Of a stretch of 64,000 nucleotides of DNA, positions 24,968-35,603 are shown piece after piece. The notes beneath the pieces were generated by a model that did no database searches, had not been told where the DNA came from, and saw only the letters and a program-made list of their open reading frames with translations. The stretch's first letter is position 1. Each line of letters begins with the position of its first letter. The position numbers and the translations under genes are program-made. This stretch comes from Ignavibacterium sp. (GTDB lineage Bacteria; Bacteroidota; Ignavibacteria; Ignavibacteriales; Ignavibacteriaceae): assembly GCA_032027145.1 (NCBI GenBank), contig JAVSMP010000001.1:1392903-1456902 (forward strand). Direction: 5' to 3'.

Positions 24968-25897
24968 TTATTTATTATCCTTTTCAATTAAATGAATAAA
25001 AACATCTTCAAGAGTTGGAATTATTCTTTCAATACGCTTAATCTTTATTCCGTTCTGTTCATAAAGTAATCGGGTAATATTCTTTTCGGTAATTGTATCA
25101 TCATTTAAGATTACGTGGATATAATTTCCAAATATTGATGTTTCGCCAACCCATTTTTCTTTTTCAAGTATTTCCAGACTATCAACAACTCTGTTGCTTT
25201 CTATTTCAAGAATCGGGTTTTTTATGTAGTTAGTTTTTAGTGCTTTTGCATTACCCTGTGCCACTAATCTGCCAGCGTTAATAAGAATTATATCATTGCA
25301 AAACTCTGCTTCATCTAAGTAATGGGTAGTAACAAGAACAGTTGTTCCGGCATCTGAAAGGTCATTTATTAAGTCCCAGAAATTTCTTCTCGAAACCGGA
25401 TCAACTCCACTGGTAGGCTCGTCAAGAAATACTATTTTTGGTTCGTGAATTACAGCAGTGCCAAGTGCGAGACGCTGTTTAATTCCACCGGGTAAAGATG
25501 CAGTAAGCATGTTTTCCATATTTTCCAGATTAGCAACCTTTAACACCCATTGTTTTCGCTCCTGATATTTCTTTCCATCAAGCCCATAAACTCCAGCATA
25601 AAACCTGATATTTTCAGCTACTGTGAGATCATTGTAAAGAGAGAATTTTTGTGACATATATCCAATATGCCTTTTTACCATTTCTGGATCATTCTTAATA
25701 CTATAGCCGCCTACCATCGCATCACCCGAAGTTGGTTCTAATACACCAATTAACATTCTGATGGTTGTAGATTTACCGGCACCATTAGCACCAAGGAAGC
25801 CGAATATCTCACCTTGTTTAACATCAAAATTGATGTTATTAACAGCAGTAAAATCACCGAATTTTTTGGTCAGATTATTTACTTCAATTGCTTTCAT
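24968..25897 (-). CDS. ABC efflux ATPase, YbhF second-half type (copy A)
   Basis: The 309-residue ATPase has Walker A GANGAGKST, Walker B KIVFLDEPTSGVDP and the H-loop VLVTTHYLDEAEFC. Its signature is LPGGIKQRLALG, so Pro replaces the usual Ser of LSGG. The C-terminal extension ends in TLEDVFIHLIEK, common in drug exporters. It overlaps the tolC stop by one base. With the companion ATPase at 27241 it likely forms an asymmetric pair corresponding to the two halves of YbhF. Confidence 0.9.
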   Translation of the reverse strand: MKAIEVNNLTKKFGDFTAVNNINFDVKQGEIFGFLGANGAGKSTTIRMLIGVLEPTSGDAMVGGYSIKNDPEMVKRHIGYMSQKFSLYNDLTVAENIRFYAGVYGLDGKKYQERKQWVLKVANLENMENMLTASLPGGIKQRLALGTAVIHEPKIVFLDEPTSGVDPVSRRNFWDLINDLSDAGTTVLVTTHYLDEAEFCNDIILINAGRLVAQGNAKALKTNYIKNPILEIESNRVVDSLEILEKEKWVGETSIFGNYIHVILNDDTITEKNITRLLYEQNGIKIKRIERIIPTLEDVFIHLIEKDNK

Positions 25898-27210
25898 CAG
25901 AAGATATTCCTTCCTAAAGATTTTAATAAATTGGTTTTTGAAATCTGGTAATCTACCTCGGCTGTTTTGAGATTTGTCTCAGCCTGCAGCTTTAGAGATT
26001 CAGCATCAATTAAATCTGTGCTTGAAGCGATTTGTAGATCATATTTTTCTGCTGTTATTCTGTAATTTTCTTTTGCCTGTTCTAAAGCAATTTTGTTTAC
26101 AGAAATTTTTTCCTCATTTCTAAGTAAGTCCAAATAATTTTTTTGTACTTCCATTTGAATATTTTCCCTTAACTGGTCATAATTTGTTTCAAGCTGTATC
26201 TTAGTCTGCTCAGCCTGTGAGACCTTGGAAGATGTTTTTCCCCAATCCCAGAAGTTCCAGCTTAAGGTTACTCCGACATCCCAGTTATTATTGAATTCAT
26301 TTACAGCAGGTTGATATCTTGGGTTAGGGTTACTATAATAATAATTGCCTGAAAGATAAACCGAAGGATAAAGCTCAGACCAGGCGGCTTTAATATTTTC
26401 TTTACTTCCTTCTATTCTAAATGATAAAGACTTTAATTCATTCCTATTACTTAAAGCTTCGCTCAAAAAATCCTTTTCATCAAATTCAATCGAACTAAGT
26501 TCATTTGGGTTAACAACTACATTAGTCTGAGAGTCCAGTTCAAATCCCAACGCTTTATTAAAAGCCATCTTCGAAATGTTCAGATTATTTATAGCATCAA
26601 TCAATATTAATTTTGTATTTGAATATTGTACCTCGAGTTTTAAAACATCATTATTTGATACTAATCCCTGCGAATAAAAATTCCTTGTGTCATTAAGATG
26701 ATTTTCAATCTGTATTAAGGTTTGTTCTACTACTTTTTTTATTTCCGTGGTCTTGTAATAATTCCAGAATGCGGTTTGAATTCCAAATGCCGTCTCATTT
26801 TTTTCTTTTGAATAGTCATATTCTTCCGCCTTCAGATTATATTTTGCAGCATTTCTTGATGATAGCAGTTTGAATCCTGTAAACAAAGGCTGTGAAAAGC
26901 CGATCTTAAATGTGTAATTATCATAAATCGGATCAGCTATTCTAACAGTCGAAGGCGAAAAGGGTAATGTTACTTCAAATGCAGGAATGTTATCACTGAG
27001 TCTTGTATAATTACCCAAAACATTAAACTGGGGTAAAAACATACTATTTACTTCCGACAGTTTATAATCGGCACTATTGGTTTTTGCACCTGCTATTTTC
27101 AAGTCCTTGCTGTTTTCTAAACCAATTCTGATACTTTCTTCTAATGTCAACAGCTTCTGCTGTGCCAGTAATGAACCAGTAAACAAAATCAGCATCATTA
27201 TTTTCTTCAT
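25897..27210 (-). CDS. TolC-family outer-membrane efflux channel (copy A)
   Basis: The 437-residue protein has a signal peptide (LLAQQ) and the internally repeated OEP architecture: TLEESIRIGLENSKDLKIA near the start, the strand YLSGNYYYSNPNPRYQP, and a second helical hairpin ending AEVDYQISKTNLLKSLGRNIF. It would supply the outer-membrane exit for the adaptor and inner-membrane ABC complex of the same operon. It is placed between the two ATPase genes, which is unusual and is conserved in copy B. Confidence 0.9.
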   Translation of the reverse strand: MKKIMMLILFTGSLLAQQKLLTLEESIRIGLENSKDLKIAGAKTNSADYKLSEVNSMFLPQFNVLGNYTRLSDNIPAFEVTLPFSPSTVRIADPIYDNYTFKIGFSQPLFTGFKLLSSRNAAKYNLKAEEYDYSKEKNETAFGIQTAFWNYYKTTEIKKVVEQTLIQIENHLNDTRNFYSQGLVSNNDVLKLEVQYSNTKLILIDAINNLNISKMAFNKALGFELDSQTNVVVNPNELSSIEFDEKDFLSEALSNRNELKSLSFRIEGSKENIKAAWSELYPSVYLSGNYYYSNPNPRYQPAVNEFNNNWDVGVTLSWNFWDWGKTSSKVSQAEQTKIQLETNYDQLRENIQMEVQKNYLDLLRNEEKISVNKIALEQAKENYRITAEKYDLQIASSTDLIDAESLKLQAETNLKTAEVDYQISKTNLLKSLGRNIF

Positions 27211-32892: not shown

Positions 32893-33820
32893 TTGTTTTG
32901 TCCTTTTCTAACAAATGTATAAATACATCTTCCAGTGTCGGCACTATCTTATCAATTCTCTGAACTTTGATTGAATTCCTGTTTGTTAAAACATCAATAA
33001 CGTCAATTTCAGTTTTTGAATTATCTTTTAATATTATATGAATGTAATTACCGAATATTGATGTTTCACCGACCCAATCTTCTTTTTCCAGTATTTCCAT
33101 ACTATCAACAATTCTGTCAGATTCAATTTCAAGTATAGTGTTTTTGATATAGTTGGTTTTTAATGCTTTTGCATTTCCCTGTGCAATCAATCTGCCGGCA
33201 TTTATCAGAATTATATCACTGCAGAATTCAGCCTCGTCTAAGTAGTGAGTAGTAACAAGCACAGTAGTTCCACCAAAGGATAATTCGTGGATCAAATCCC
33301 AGAAATTTCTCCTTGATACCGGATCAACTCCGCTGGTTGGCTCATCAAGAAAAACAATTTTAGGTTCGTGTATAACGGCGGTTCCTAATGCAAGTCTTTG
33401 TTTAATTCCGCCCGGCAACGAAGCCGTTAATAATTTTTCCTTTCCTTTGAGATCTGCAACTTTTAAAACCCAGTTTTTTCTTTCCTGATATTGTTTTCCT
33501 GTAAGCCCATATACTCCTGCAAAGAAGCGGATATTTTCTTCAACTGTAAGATCATTGTATAAAGAAAATTTTTGCGACATATAGCCGATTTGTGTTTTCA
33601 CTTTATCCGGTTCTTTCATAATGCTGTAACCGCCAACAATTGCATCACCCGATGTTGGTTCAAGTATTCCGGTTAACATTCTGATTGTAGTTGATTTGCC
33701 TGCACCATTAGCACCGAGAAACCCGAATATTTCTCCCTTGTTTACATTGAAGGATACATTATCAACTGCAGTAAAGCTGCCGAATTTTTTTGTAAGATTA
33801 TTTACTATGATACTGTTCAT
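32882..33820 (-). CDS. ABC efflux ATPase, YbhF second-half type (copy B)
   Basis: The ATPase has Walker A GANGAGKST, Walker B KIVFLDEPTSGVDP, H-loop VTTHYLDEAEFC and the same non-standard LPGGIKQRLALG signature as copy A. I use ATG 33820 instead of a TTG two codons earlier. In copy A the equivalent gene overlaps tolC; here a four-helix-bundle gene and repeats separate them, so translational coupling with tolC has been lost. Confidence 0.9.
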   Translation of the reverse strand: MNSIIVNNLTKKFGSFTAVDNVSFNVNKGEIFGFLGANGAGKSTTIRMLTGILEPTSGDAIVGGYSIMKEPDKVKTQIGYMSQKFSLYNDLTVEENIRFFAGVYGLTGKQYQERKNWVLKVADLKGKEKLLTASLPGGIKQRLALGTAVIHEPKIVFLDEPTSGVDPVSRRNFWDLIHELSFGGTTVLVTTHYLDEAEFCSDIILINAGRLIAQGNAKALKTNYIKNTILEIESDRIVDSMEILEKEDWVGETSIFGNYIHIILKDNSKTEIDVIDVLTNRNSIKVQRIDKIVPTLEDVFIHLLEKDKTNVS

Positions 33821-33829
33821 TTTCAATAT

Positions 33830-33854
33830 TCAGAACTCTGGAATCAGGACTCAG
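33830..33854 (+). repeat. Short CTGA/TCAG-rich repeat array, left flank of the four-helix-bundle gene
   Basis: The bases run TCAGAACTCTGGAATCAGG and then ACTCAG, built from GAxTCAG-like units. The array overlaps the last codons of the four-helix-bundle gene. It is related in inverted orientation to the array at 34242-34286. Confidence 0.55.
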
Positions 33855-34212
33855 TTTTTGAAATTACTTTGGAGTATGAATAGGGCAGCTTACTTACTTC
33901 CTCTAAGATATTCATAGCATCTTTAACATCGCAATATTTAAGATCATTTGATAAAATCAAGTAATATCTGCACTCTTCAAGTGAGCTGTGAGCAATATTT
34001 AGAAGTCTTGATTTTTCCTTGTTACTCCACTTTTTATAGCTTTCCGCAATGTTAGCTGCAATTGAAATAGCTGCTCTTCTGAATTGTGAAGCTAATCCGT
34101 AAACTTCTTCATTCGGGAATTCTTTGGTTAATTTATAGACAGTCAGCACGAATAAATGTGCCTTTTGCCAAACGACTAATTCGGTAAAACTTTCTGTTGA
34201 TTTCTTTTCCAT
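33844..34212 (-). CDS. Four-helix-bundle (23S rRNA intervening-sequence, S23-type) protein
   Basis: The 122-residue protein matches the IVS/S23 four-helix-bundle family: VVWQKAHLFVLTVYKLTKEF, EEVYGLASQFRRAAISIAAN and IAESYKKWSNKEKSRLLNIA, then SLEECRYYLIL. Members sit in 23S rRNA intervening sequences of some bacteria or as lone genes in Bacteroidota, with no firm function. Here the gene interrupts efflux operon B between tolC and the second ATPase, and short inverted repeat arrays flank it. Copy A of the operon lacks it, so it is an insertion. Confidence 0.88.
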   Translation of the reverse strand: MEKKSTESFTELVVWQKAHLFVLTVYKLTKEFPNEEVYGLASQFRRAAISIAANIAESYKKWSNKEKSRLLNIAHSSLEECRYYLILSNDLKYCDVKDAMNILEEVSKLPYSYSKVISKTES

Positions 34213-34241
34213 TTAAAATCCTCTTAATTCTTATTTTAAAA

Positions 34242-34286
34242 TTCTGTGTCCTGAGTTCTGACACCTGACTCCTGACTTCTGGCTTC
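34242..34286 (+). repeat. Short CTGA-rich repeat array, right flank of the four-helix-bundle gene
   Basis: Units such as GTCCTGAGTTCTGACACC, TGACTCCTGACTTCTGG follow one another with a period of about 7-8 bases. The array touches the tolC stop codon. Its reverse complement contains TCAGAACTCAGGAC, matching the left array. Such tracts are often seen beside lone four-helix-bundle genes. Confidence 0.55.
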
Positions 34287-35603
34287 TCAATAAATCTTTC
34301 TCCCCACTGTTAAATCCAGTTTCACTTTTGCAAGATGATATTCAATCAATGACGAAGTGAGATTAGTTGCTGCCTGAAGCTCAGAGACCTCTGCATCAAT
34401 CAAATCGGTACTTGTAGCTAATTGTTCTTTATATTTCTCAGTTATAATGCGGTAATTTTCTGATGCCTGTTCCAAGCTAAGTTTGCTGACACCCGCTTTT
34501 TCTTTCGATTTAATTAAGTTCAGATAACTTTTATAGACTTCAATTTCAATGTTGTCATTCAGCTTTTCAAGCGAAGCCTGAGTTTGAACAGAAAGTTCTT
34601 CAGCCTGAGTAGTTTTAGATAAGGTTGATCCCCAATCCCAAACATCCCAGCTTAAAGTTACGCCAACATCCCAAGTATCATTCCATTTGTCAGTAAGCGG
34701 CTGAAATCTTGTATTAGGATTACTGTAATAATAATTGCCGGATAAGTAAACACTTGGGAACCAGCCCGATCTGGCTGAAGTAATATTTTCTTCAGCGGCT
34801 TTCAATTTATAAGATAATGATTCAATCTCGTTACGATTTATTTTTGCTTCCTTAATAAGTTCTTCGGGATTATAATTTATGTTCTGAACTTTTAATTCAT
34901 CAGTAACAACTTCTGTTTTCGTTTCAAGCGGAAGTCCCAGAGTTTTATTAAACACAGCCCGCGTAACTTCCAGATTGTTTTCTGCTTCAATCAATTGCAA
35001 TTGTGTGTTTAAATACTGTACTTGTAATTTAAGATAATCATTCTGAGTTGTCAGACCATTCTCAAGAAAGTTTTTTGTATCCTTAAGATGATTTTCGATT
35101 TGTCCCAGACTTTTCATTAAAAGATTTCTTATTTCATTAGCTCTGTAATAATTCCAGAATATTGTATGGATATTCATAACAGTCTCATTCAGCTCTTTTG
35201 AATAATCGGATTCAGCTGCATTGAAATAATACTCTGCTGCTTTTTTAGATGATAGTAGTTTGAGTCCTGTAAATATTGGCTGTTGGAGTGATAGCTTTAA
35301 ATAATAATTATTTAATACCGGCTCAGATATTTTTATTGGCACAGCAGAAAACGGAGTGATAACTTCGAACGGAGGAACATTATCACTTAAACGGGTATAG
35401 TTTACTGTAAATTTAAACTGCGGAAGAAACATCGAATTAACTTCAGATACCTTTGCATCAGAACTTTTTAATTTTGATTGAGTAATTCTTAAATCTTTAC
35501 TGTTCCTAAGCCCCAGCTCTATACTTTCCTGCAGTGTTAGTTTTTGCGCTTGTGAATAAAGAGATGATATTATCATTATGCTTAATAATACTATTTTTTT
35601 CAT
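34287..35603 (-). CDS. TolC-family outer-membrane efflux channel (copy B)
   Basis: The 438-residue paralog of the channel at 25897-27210 has the same landmarks: a signal peptide ending SQAQ, LTLQESIELGLRNSKDLRIT, YLSGNYYYSNPNTRFQPL and the C-terminal helical hairpin ending TVGRKIY. It lies 12 bases after the first ATPase gene of operon B. It should form the exit duct of exporter B. Confidence 0.9.
   Translation of the reverse strand: MKKIVLLSIMIISSLYSQAQKLTLQESIELGLRNSKDLRITQSKLKSSDAKVSEVNSMFLPQFKFTVNYTRLSDNVPPFEVITPFSAVPIKISEPVLNNYYLKLSLQQPIFTGLKLLSSKKAAEYYFNAAESDYSKELNETVMNIHTIFWNYYRANEIRNLLMKSLGQIENHLKDTKNFLENGLTTQNDYLKLQVQYLNTQLQLIEAENNLEVTRAVFNKTLGLPLETKTEVVTDELKVQNINYNPEELIKEAKINRNEIESLSYKLKAAEENITSARSGWFPSVYLSGNYYYSNPNTRFQPLTDKWNDTWDVGVTLSWDVWDWGSTLSKTTQAEELSVQTQASLEKLNDNIEIEVYKSYLNLIKSKEKAGVSKLSLEQASENYRIITEKYKEQLATSTDLIDAEVSELQAATNLTSSLIEYHLAKVKLDLTVGRKIY

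Follow-up and report, generated by a model that had tools for sequence, protein, structure and literature searches.

The intervening sequences (IVSs) of 23S rRNA genes are among the closest described counterparts of the element reported here. Their protein family, their proposed nature as mobile elements and the heptamers of the Coxiella IVS have already been published (PMC4990558, in the sections drawn on here). According to the same sections, the Coxiella IVS carries two to three tandem GACAGAT heptamers just 5′ of its open reading frame (ORF), in a number that depends on the strain, and a Xanthomonas member of the family has been described as a homopentamer. A resemblance of this family, PF05635, to the Avd protein of diversity-generating retroelements (DGRs) has also been noted (PMC10053308, part of the text). 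Separately, intergenic arrays of the heptamer TAACTGA have been reported from Bacteroidetes, Cyanobacteria and Beggiatoaceae as a feature of unknown cause, most of them lying just upstream of start codons in one genome (MacGregor 2015, PMC4679880, part of the text); the terms "four helix" and "S23" are absent from the main text of that paper. Here we describe a PF05635 gene and its flanking repeats in a 64,000-nucleotide stretch of the Ignavibacterium sp. genome (contig JAVSMP010000001.1, positions 1,392,903 to 1,456,902), hereafter the window. The locus is, in our judgement, likely to be a minimal mobile genetic element of ~0.46 kb that consists of one Avd-like four-helix-bundle gene and its own inverted arrays of degenerate heptamers. 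Searches of openly licensed papers turned up nothing, beyond the heptamers of the Coxiella IVS, that connects this family with inverted, copy-specific heptad arrays at protein-coding operons of several phyla.

Results

Anatomy of the window element

The original prediction placed a four-helix-bundle gene between inverted short-repeat arrays at a junction of an efflux operon, and our analysis confirmed both the arrangement and its coordinates. The parts of the element are as follows.

33829..34289, minus strand: whole element, 461 bp, from the stop codon of the upstream gene through the end of the 3′ array; it lies within the high-identity stretch shared with genome G002 (see below)
34242..34289, minus strand: 5′ heptad array, beginning at the stop codon of the upstream gene; top lag-7 stretch of the window (22/28)
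33844..34212, minus strand: four-helix-bundle (IVS/S23, Avd-like) protein gene, 122 aa; PF05635 (E 3.9e-34), TIGR02436
33829..33854, minus strand: 3′ heptad array, opposite in orientation to its 5′ counterpart and overlapping the last codons of the gene; lag-7 19/28, complementarity score 14

Read in the sense of the gene, the units of the 5′ array after the TGA are GAAGCCA GAAGTCA GGAGTCA GGTGTCA GAACTCA GGACACA. On the forward strand this array (34242-34289) shows four CTGA spaced exactly 7 nt apart together with degenerate units, and the other one (33829-33854) shows three TCAG at spacings of 14 and 7 nt. Thus CTGA, which had been proposed as the repeat, holds as the core of the unit, but the lag-7 period ruled out a tetramer and identified a degenerate 7-mer instead. 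In the lag-7 scan of the window the left array (19/28) was one of four stretches tied in second place, and the complementarity of the two arms (14) was equalled or exceeded by 35 of 19,735 random pairs drawn from the window. PF05635 was the single gene enclosed, and no transposase or recombinase gene was found in the interior of the element.

The encoded protein matched the profile of the 23S rRNA IVS "S23" family, PF05635, with 117.5 bits (cut-off 33.8), and TIGR02436 with 108.5 bits (cut-off 24). AlphaFold modelled it as a confident bundle (pLDDT 89.7), for which the top solved matches in Foldseek were the four-helix bundles 2gsc (TM 0.74-0.78) and 2rld (TM 0.71-0.76), each with five chains; like these solved relatives, the window protein would be pentameric. 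Next came Avd (4dwl, TM 0.71-0.74) and the DGR ribonucleoprotein (8ub7/8ub8/8ube), with a probability of 1.00 yet E values of 0.04 or worse, and the sequence match to Avd was weak (33 bits, under the NCBIfam cut-off of 80).

The family is widespread, with a match in at least 234 of 296 sampled genomes of the phylum. The genome of the window (G000; 3.67 Mb, one contig) holds six matches, two of them with internal stops, and by eye each of the six copies has its own inverted array with a motif that differs from copy to copy.

A near-identical unit lies between diverged neighbours

The comparison that bears most directly on mobility is that between G000 and G002, which belong to the same genus. 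Third-position identity between them was 0.747 in the gene of the upstream outer membrane efflux protein (OEP) and 0.742 in the downstream ATPase gene, whereas it reached 0.984 in the four-helix-bundle gene; the maximum in any of 626 segments of 123 third positions taken from both neighbours was 0.862. At fourfold sites, 39 of 39 positions were identical in the element gene versus 0.69 of 139 in the OEP gene. After dense mismatches, the high-identity stretch opens 7 nt ahead of the stop codon of the OEP gene and closes 26 nt inside the ATPase gene; within it the two genomes differ at four sites of the 5′ array, at six of the ORF and nowhere else. The most fitting reading of this pattern is that just this unit was transferred recently, and it is the chief support for the earlier proposal that the gene and its arrays move together, which we consider very probable. 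A unit younger than its flanks, as expected of a mobile element, was seen in the G000/G002 pair only.

At the protein level, discordance between element and host genes was found in further pairs. The element proteins of G021 and G032 are 91% identical and their OEPs 57%, while G000 and G005, of the same genus, share 80% identity in OEP and 57% in the element protein. On the tree, the G000/G002 protein groups with proteins of other junctions (SH-aLRT, the approximate likelihood ratio test, 88, below the 95 mark). Between nuoC and nuoD, the element of G041 is closer to that of G053 (81%) than to that of its congener G054 (74%), the corresponding NuoC values being 69% and 81%; no discordance of this kind emerged from the remaining nuo pairs.

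The host genes around the window element are the following.

34287..35603, minus strand: upstream host gene, TolC-like OEP, PF02321
32882..33820, minus strand: downstream host gene, ATP-binding cassette (ABC) transporter ATPase, PF00005; start read by eye (ATG at 33820; the ORF list has TTG at 33826)

In the same efflux operon, G002 carries a second four-helix-bundle gene 5′ of the first ATPase gene (L103 184-534, L057 4628-4978). Judged from its position, this site is the HlyD/ABC1 junction, where the genome of the window has just 64 nt.

Family members across phyla are flanked by matching inverted arms

The pairing of the arms at the window copy is modest by itself; the case rests on the whole family. 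We aligned the 5′ flank of each gene to the reverse complement of its 3′ flank and compared own with mismatched pairs, using a score of 18 as threshold. The 220 members comprised 76 genes at the order level, 66 from the wider phylum and 78 named loci. The order set consists of the distinct intact copies with both flanks among 102 ORF matches listed, duplicates included; the named set derives from the best 80 of the matches listed in a scan, of which 78 genes were kept and split by hand, according to their record titles, into Bacteroidota and others. Copies shorter than 90 aa, duplicates and genes with a flank below 150 nt (order set) or 120 nt (other two sets) were left out. Flanks were cut at the ORF edge, so that copies whose 3′ array starts inside the ORF, such as that of the window, are undervalued.

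In the order set, own pairs scored 19.7 on average. The 5,700 mismatched pairs averaged 12.8 and the 543 control genes 14.3, while own flanks compared in direct orientation gave 14.6. The threshold was reached by 44 of 76 own pairs, 330 of 5,700 mismatched pairs, 90 of 543 controls and 15 of 76 own direct pairs. The control genes are a conservative control, since they include the direct neighbours of the element. The wider phylum gave 19.0 for own versus 11.6 for mismatched pairs, with 38 of 66 genes at 18 or above, and the 21 Bacteroidota of the named set gave 20.5 versus 12.3 (13 of 21). In the 57 genes from other phyla, which include Planctomycetes, Acidobacteria, Clostridia, Kiritimatiellota, Proteobacteria and candidate phyla, own pairs averaged 22.4, mismatched pairs 10.8 and direct pairs 13.0; the threshold was reached by 30 of 57 own and 2.2% of mismatched pairs. 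The check suggested with the original prediction, collecting family members from related genomes, thus came out in its favour with respect to matching flanking arrays. The highest inverted flank score among the 543 control genes, 40, belongs to a gene (L093 8108-8506, plus strand) lying within long inverted CTCACCCCCGACCCCTCTCC-type repeats, whose product we take to resemble DUF559-type endonucleases.

The flanks share a period of 7 nt. Identity at lag 7 in the order set was 0.386 (5′) and 0.373 (3′), compared to 0.27-0.32 at lags 3-6 and 8-13, and to 0.306 and 0.313 at lag 7 in control genes. The wider phylum gave 0.391 and 0.367, and lag 7 was prominent in all three sets, along with its multiple 14. 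In the 76-gene order set, 7-mer arrays were called at 37% of 5′ and 38% of 3′ flanks.

The heptamer has a consensus and a fixed polarity

Among the 220 loci we detected 143 5′ arrays and 124 3′ arrays, with both at 97 loci. In gene sense the 5′ unit reads T(.59)-N-A(.80)-G(.81)-T(.46)-N-R and the core of the 3′ unit is complementary, A-C-T-N-A. The 5′ consensus scored 258 and the 3′ consensus 220, compared to at most 179 and 169, respectively, in 20 sets with permuted columns that were given the same number of restarts as the data. Of the 5′ arrays, 70% showed phased AG and 11% phased CT; of the 3′ arrays, 9% and 65% did. The polarity of the arrays is therefore fixed relative to the gene. Array motifs vary among copies, though 5′ arrays have T-N-A-G-T-N-R in common.

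Arrays are concentrated around the gene

We scanned 61 regions (769 kb, two G000 regions overlapping by 2 kb) for arrays. Up to 200 nt from the gene there were 1.65 arrays per non-coding kb (55 in 33,331 nt), compared to 0.35 per kb beyond 1 kb (41 in 115,749 nt), a 4.7-fold difference. An arrangement in which arrays occur at random without the gene, which would have contradicted the proposed unit, is thus not what we observed, although gene-less arrays do occur. The scan returned 33 inverted array pairs, some of them 1.8-2.4 kb apart; 27 carried the flag for an enclosed gene, coordinates show an overlap with it for two others (L060 first pair, L087), and neither applies to the last four (the second pairs of L060 and L067, and L094 and L095). 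The share of gene-enclosing pairs is inflated because nearly all regions were picked around such genes. Solo arrays lying within 60 nt after a stop codon comprised 9 AG and 5 CT, and those before a start codon 2 AG and 1 CT; in these small counts the start-codon bias of TAACTGA arrays was not seen, and they are too few for a conclusion on orientation.

In the same genomes, 7-mer arrays were called at 0 of 20 5′ and 1 of 20 3′ flanks of GIY-YIG genes, and at 0 of 19 flanks on either side of Y1 transposase genes. The single positive, L343, is likely due to a run of N, which no other control locus contains. GIY-YIG and Y1 flanks are also alike from side to side, but lack the period of 7 nt (identity at lag 7 of 0.288 and 0.268). 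Heptad arrays as a general trait of small repeat-flanked genes are thus ruled out for the GIY-YIG and Y1 genes sampled.

The GIY-YIG loci (L328-L347) have direct or palindromic repeats of their own at their flanks, e.g. GTCACTTTGAGCGAAGTCGAAAAGTGAC in L335, and resemble REP-RAYT pairs (see Discussion). Their own direct flank score averages 41 (20 loci), compared to 12 for mismatched inverted pairs. Three equal-scoring GIY-YIG matches at an exact spacing of 317 nt form a tandem array at G000:C1:1733881-1734727, and five-fold tandem arrays were present in G006 and G023 among the matches listed.

Junctions are occupied, empty or decayed in relatives

Some relatives lack the element at the junctions under study, as expected of a mobile element. 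The tolC/ATPase junction was compared at the 30 loci listed, with the gene present in eight (G000, G002, G005, G021, G031, G032, G054, where it is truncated, and G057). Stop and start codons overlap, as judged by eye, in G004, which belongs to the genus of the window, and in five other genomes (G040, G042, G043, G051 and G053), so that the situation that would have spoken against mobility, the gene being present here in all relatives, does not hold and orthologous empty junctions exist. The remaining loci have other short spacers, a different next gene or gene-less inverted arrays, which by eye we take for remnants (G038, G039). The empty site put forward in the original prediction was another one, the paralogous operon copy A:

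24968..27210, minus strand: paralogous operon copy A, OEP (25897-27210) and ATPase (24968-25897) genes joined directly with overlapping stop and start codons, element-free

This copy was discarded as a reference, being a 53%-identical paralogue and a different site. Two further arrangements were seen by eye at tolC/ATPase junctions. In G038 (L111) a second pair of another motif is nested within the gene-less inverted heptad pair, and G041 and G006 (L116, L128) carry another repeat family that starts with GGAACACAG and has GTGTTCC or a decayed partner on the opposite side.

At nuoC/nuoD, 50 loci comprised eight main-family genes, two members of a remote subfamily (G031 and G032; 38-40 bits with a profile built in this analysis, arrays unrelated), two remnants (G012 and G039, by eye), 35 short junctions, seven of which were judged by eye where the script located no NuoC end, and three loci left unjudged (G038, G048, G051). 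The nuoC stop codon was TAG at all eight main-family sites versus 1 of 28 script-delimited short junctions. In L164 and L170, by eye, the N-terminal extension that NuoD has in this genus is coded by 3′-array-like sequence (ACTAAATACTAAA); it may be an earlier element that became part of the coding region.

Both neighbours were readable for 74 elements. Each of these runs in the direction of its upstream gene, and 67 run in that of both neighbours; among controls, 416 of 502 are co-directional with the upstream gene. The sequence TATTGA, found at both ends in G000 and G002, was considered as a target-site duplication and dropped, as it was not seen by eye at other copies.

Each copy has its own pair of arms

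Among elements of the same junction, own arms scored 18.6 versus 12.7 for orthologous arms at nuo (8 elements, p 0.001) and 10.4 versus 8.8 at tolC (7 elements, p 0.007); G032 and G021 (tolC) and G004 (nuo) were kept in this test though host sequence is untrimmed there.

Matching arms would also persist through selection on base pairing, if the arrays acted in RNA. The arms could then pair into a stem like that of an IVS, to be cut by RNase III; alternatively, the protein could control translation by binding the phased AG of its own 5′ leader, in the way that TRAP binds GAG/UAG repeats in RNA. This explanation is possible, though we hold it to be on the unlikely side. The co-direction of 74 of 74 elements with the upstream gene (416 of 502 controls) and the phased AG of 70% of 5′ versus 9% of 3′ arrays speak for it. 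RNase III does cut the stems of rRNA IVSs (PMC4990558, in the sections drawn on here). However, the mismatches between arms at 54 loci comprised 122 G-U and 119 A-C, with no G-U excess, in alignments that are noisy (473 other mismatches). Near parity of G-U and A-C is what the base counts of the mismatched columns predict, so composition hides no excess. In addition, the RNA of the window element folded no better than shuffled sequences (z −0.39). The similar numbers of A-C and G-U mismatches indicate that RNA pairing is probably not what keeps the arms matched; instead, they would be kept alike by copying between arms at the DNA level, or by both being made from one template.

Candidate movers and the ordinary-gene explanation

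The element could alternatively be non-autonomous and depend on Y1 (HuH) transposases of the REP type to move it in trans as a passenger, which we regard as unlikely. Copy number of four-helix-bundle genes tracks that of Y1 genes (rho 0.62, 59 genomes), also in phylogenetic contrasts (r 0.60, p 3e-6, 50 genomes), and all five genomes without a Y1 match, some of them fragmented assemblies, hold at most two copies. However, GIY-YIG copy number correlates equally (contrasts r 0.62), Y1 shows a weak partial correlation (r 0.32, p 0.024) and the flanks of the sampled Y1 genes are heptad-free. Since GIY-YIG correlates as well as Y1, the data do not single out Y1 as the mover. In the same contrasts no association was found with DDE_Tnp_1 (0.18) or reverse transcriptases (0.10). 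The element keeps company with a guild of small repeat-flanked genes.

An ordinary operon gene beside slippage-prone intergenic repeats, with the G002 identity due to homologous recombination or selection, would account for the site-faithful protein lineages and the in-place decay at junctions, but we find it very improbable. Slippage alone yields no inverted, copy-specific partners on two sides; identity changes abruptly where the OEP gene stops and close to where the ATPase gene starts; and other same-site copies are diverged, which argues against a general constraint on the sequence of the element.

Least probable is reverse transcription of the element RNA by a DGR-like enzyme with the protein in the role of Avd, to which it is related in fold and weakly in sequence: PF00078 was unmatched in 31 of 59 genomes, including G006 (19 copies, one contig), G018 (20) and G043 (15), in 14 of 26 genomes with seven or more copies and throughout G000, and the copy-number correlation was 0.01, so that a requirement for a reverse transcriptase inside the carrier genome is largely refuted.

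Discussion

We favour the interpretation that the window locus is a minimal mobile element. Comparison of sequences shows a defined anatomy, occurrence in sampled genomes of many phyla, copy-specific arms, stop-start placement and co-direction with the upstream gene, and likewise element-free junctions, decayed copies and one junction taken by different protein lineages.

Several observations weigh against this interpretation. Movement is read from the comparison of sequences, and only the G000/G002 pair shows a unit that is young by synonymous sites; in 27 of 28 nuo pairs, third-position identity of the element failed to exceed that of NuoC by the required margin of 0.1. Proteins also tend to group by junction (9 label changes on the tree versus 25 when shuffled), so the distribution must in large part be ancient, with elements inherited at their sites and decaying there, and movement itself is site-faithful. 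Viewed by eye, occupied junctions showed no consistent target-site duplication. Scores under 18 were obtained for 32 of 76 genes in the order set, 28 of 66 in the wider phylum and 35 of 78 named loci, and these samples, being mostly best matches, lean to high-scoring family members. Flank similarity in direct orientation was also raised in the 21 Bacteroidota (17.1), and at idh the difference between own and orthologous arms (14.8 versus 11.9, 5 elements) was not significant (p 0.069). Pairing at the window copy alone is modest (rank 12 to 37 of 76 in the k-mer test), with a score of 11 in the own-flank inverted alignment, for which the threshold is 18. The window arrays also fell below threshold in the search for inverted array pairs and are not among the 33 found, partly because the 3′ array starts within the ORF. 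Binding of the arrays by the protein is inferred from its Avd-like fold, and work on the Coxiella IVS suggests that no S23p is made there in vivo (PMC4990558, in the sections drawn on here).

A mechanism can nevertheless be proposed for such a mobile element. The protein, as a putative pentamer, would bind the heptad arrays, with their 7-nt register and conserved AG, as DNA or nascent RNA, and this binding would mark the ends of the element. Cutting and joining would be carried out by host or trans-acting enzymes, which we propose because the element holds no recombinase and many carriers are without reverse transcriptase. On movement or repair, the arms would be copied from each other or from one template and would in this way stay matched while the motif drifts. 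The IVS of 23S rRNA would be the rRNA-borne version, and many solo heptamer arrays would be remains.

"Four helix bundle protein" is at present an annotation without a function, and tying it to an element whose ends are defined assigns the family a role in biology. The role of the ORF in the 23S rRNA IVS becomes a question that a binding experiment can answer, an origin is offered for heptamer arrays that have remained unexplained, and attention is drawn to a mobile unit lacking any known recombinase. There is a real chance that the element deserves a class of its own. The wider proposal is one that we judge to be evenly balanced: a pan-bacterial class of recombinase-less elements, unrecognised so far, with an Avd-like pentamer gene, inverted arrays read in a 7-nt register and element-specific arms rewritten together, of which rRNA IVSs and the heptamer arrays of Bacteroidetes, Cyanobacteria and Beggiatoaceae would be special cases or remains.

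Among known systems, REPs (repetitive extragenic palindromes) are short palindromes and the gene of the RAYT (REP-associated tyrosine transposase) encodes a HuH transposase. Like REP/REPIN-RAYT (TnpA-REP), the element has a small single gene amid copies of its own repeat, with gene-less repeat pairs elsewhere; unlike them, its ends are 7-nt arrays and the enclosed gene is not a Y1 transposase but PF05635, which has no known catalytic domain. The window protein resembles the Avd of DGRs in fold and, weakly, in sequence, but there is no reverse transcriptase in the unit or in G000. TAACTGA arrays are like those of the element in that the reverse complement, TCAGTTA, fits the TNAGTNR core and the near-start position is that of the 3′ arms here (PMC4679880, part of the text). 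There is also a likeness with the 23S rRNA IVSs that carry an S23p ORF (Leptospira, Coxiella, Brucella): the protein family is the same, the ORF lies between complementary ends, as it does in the window, the size is about 0.43-0.46 kb, the distribution is sporadic and mobility has been proposed. In contrast to these, the window element sits between OEP and ABC ATPase genes instead of in an rRNA gene, and its arms are copy-matched heptad arrays with no sign of a selected RNA stem. All in all, the 23S rRNA IVS looks like a special case of the element described here.

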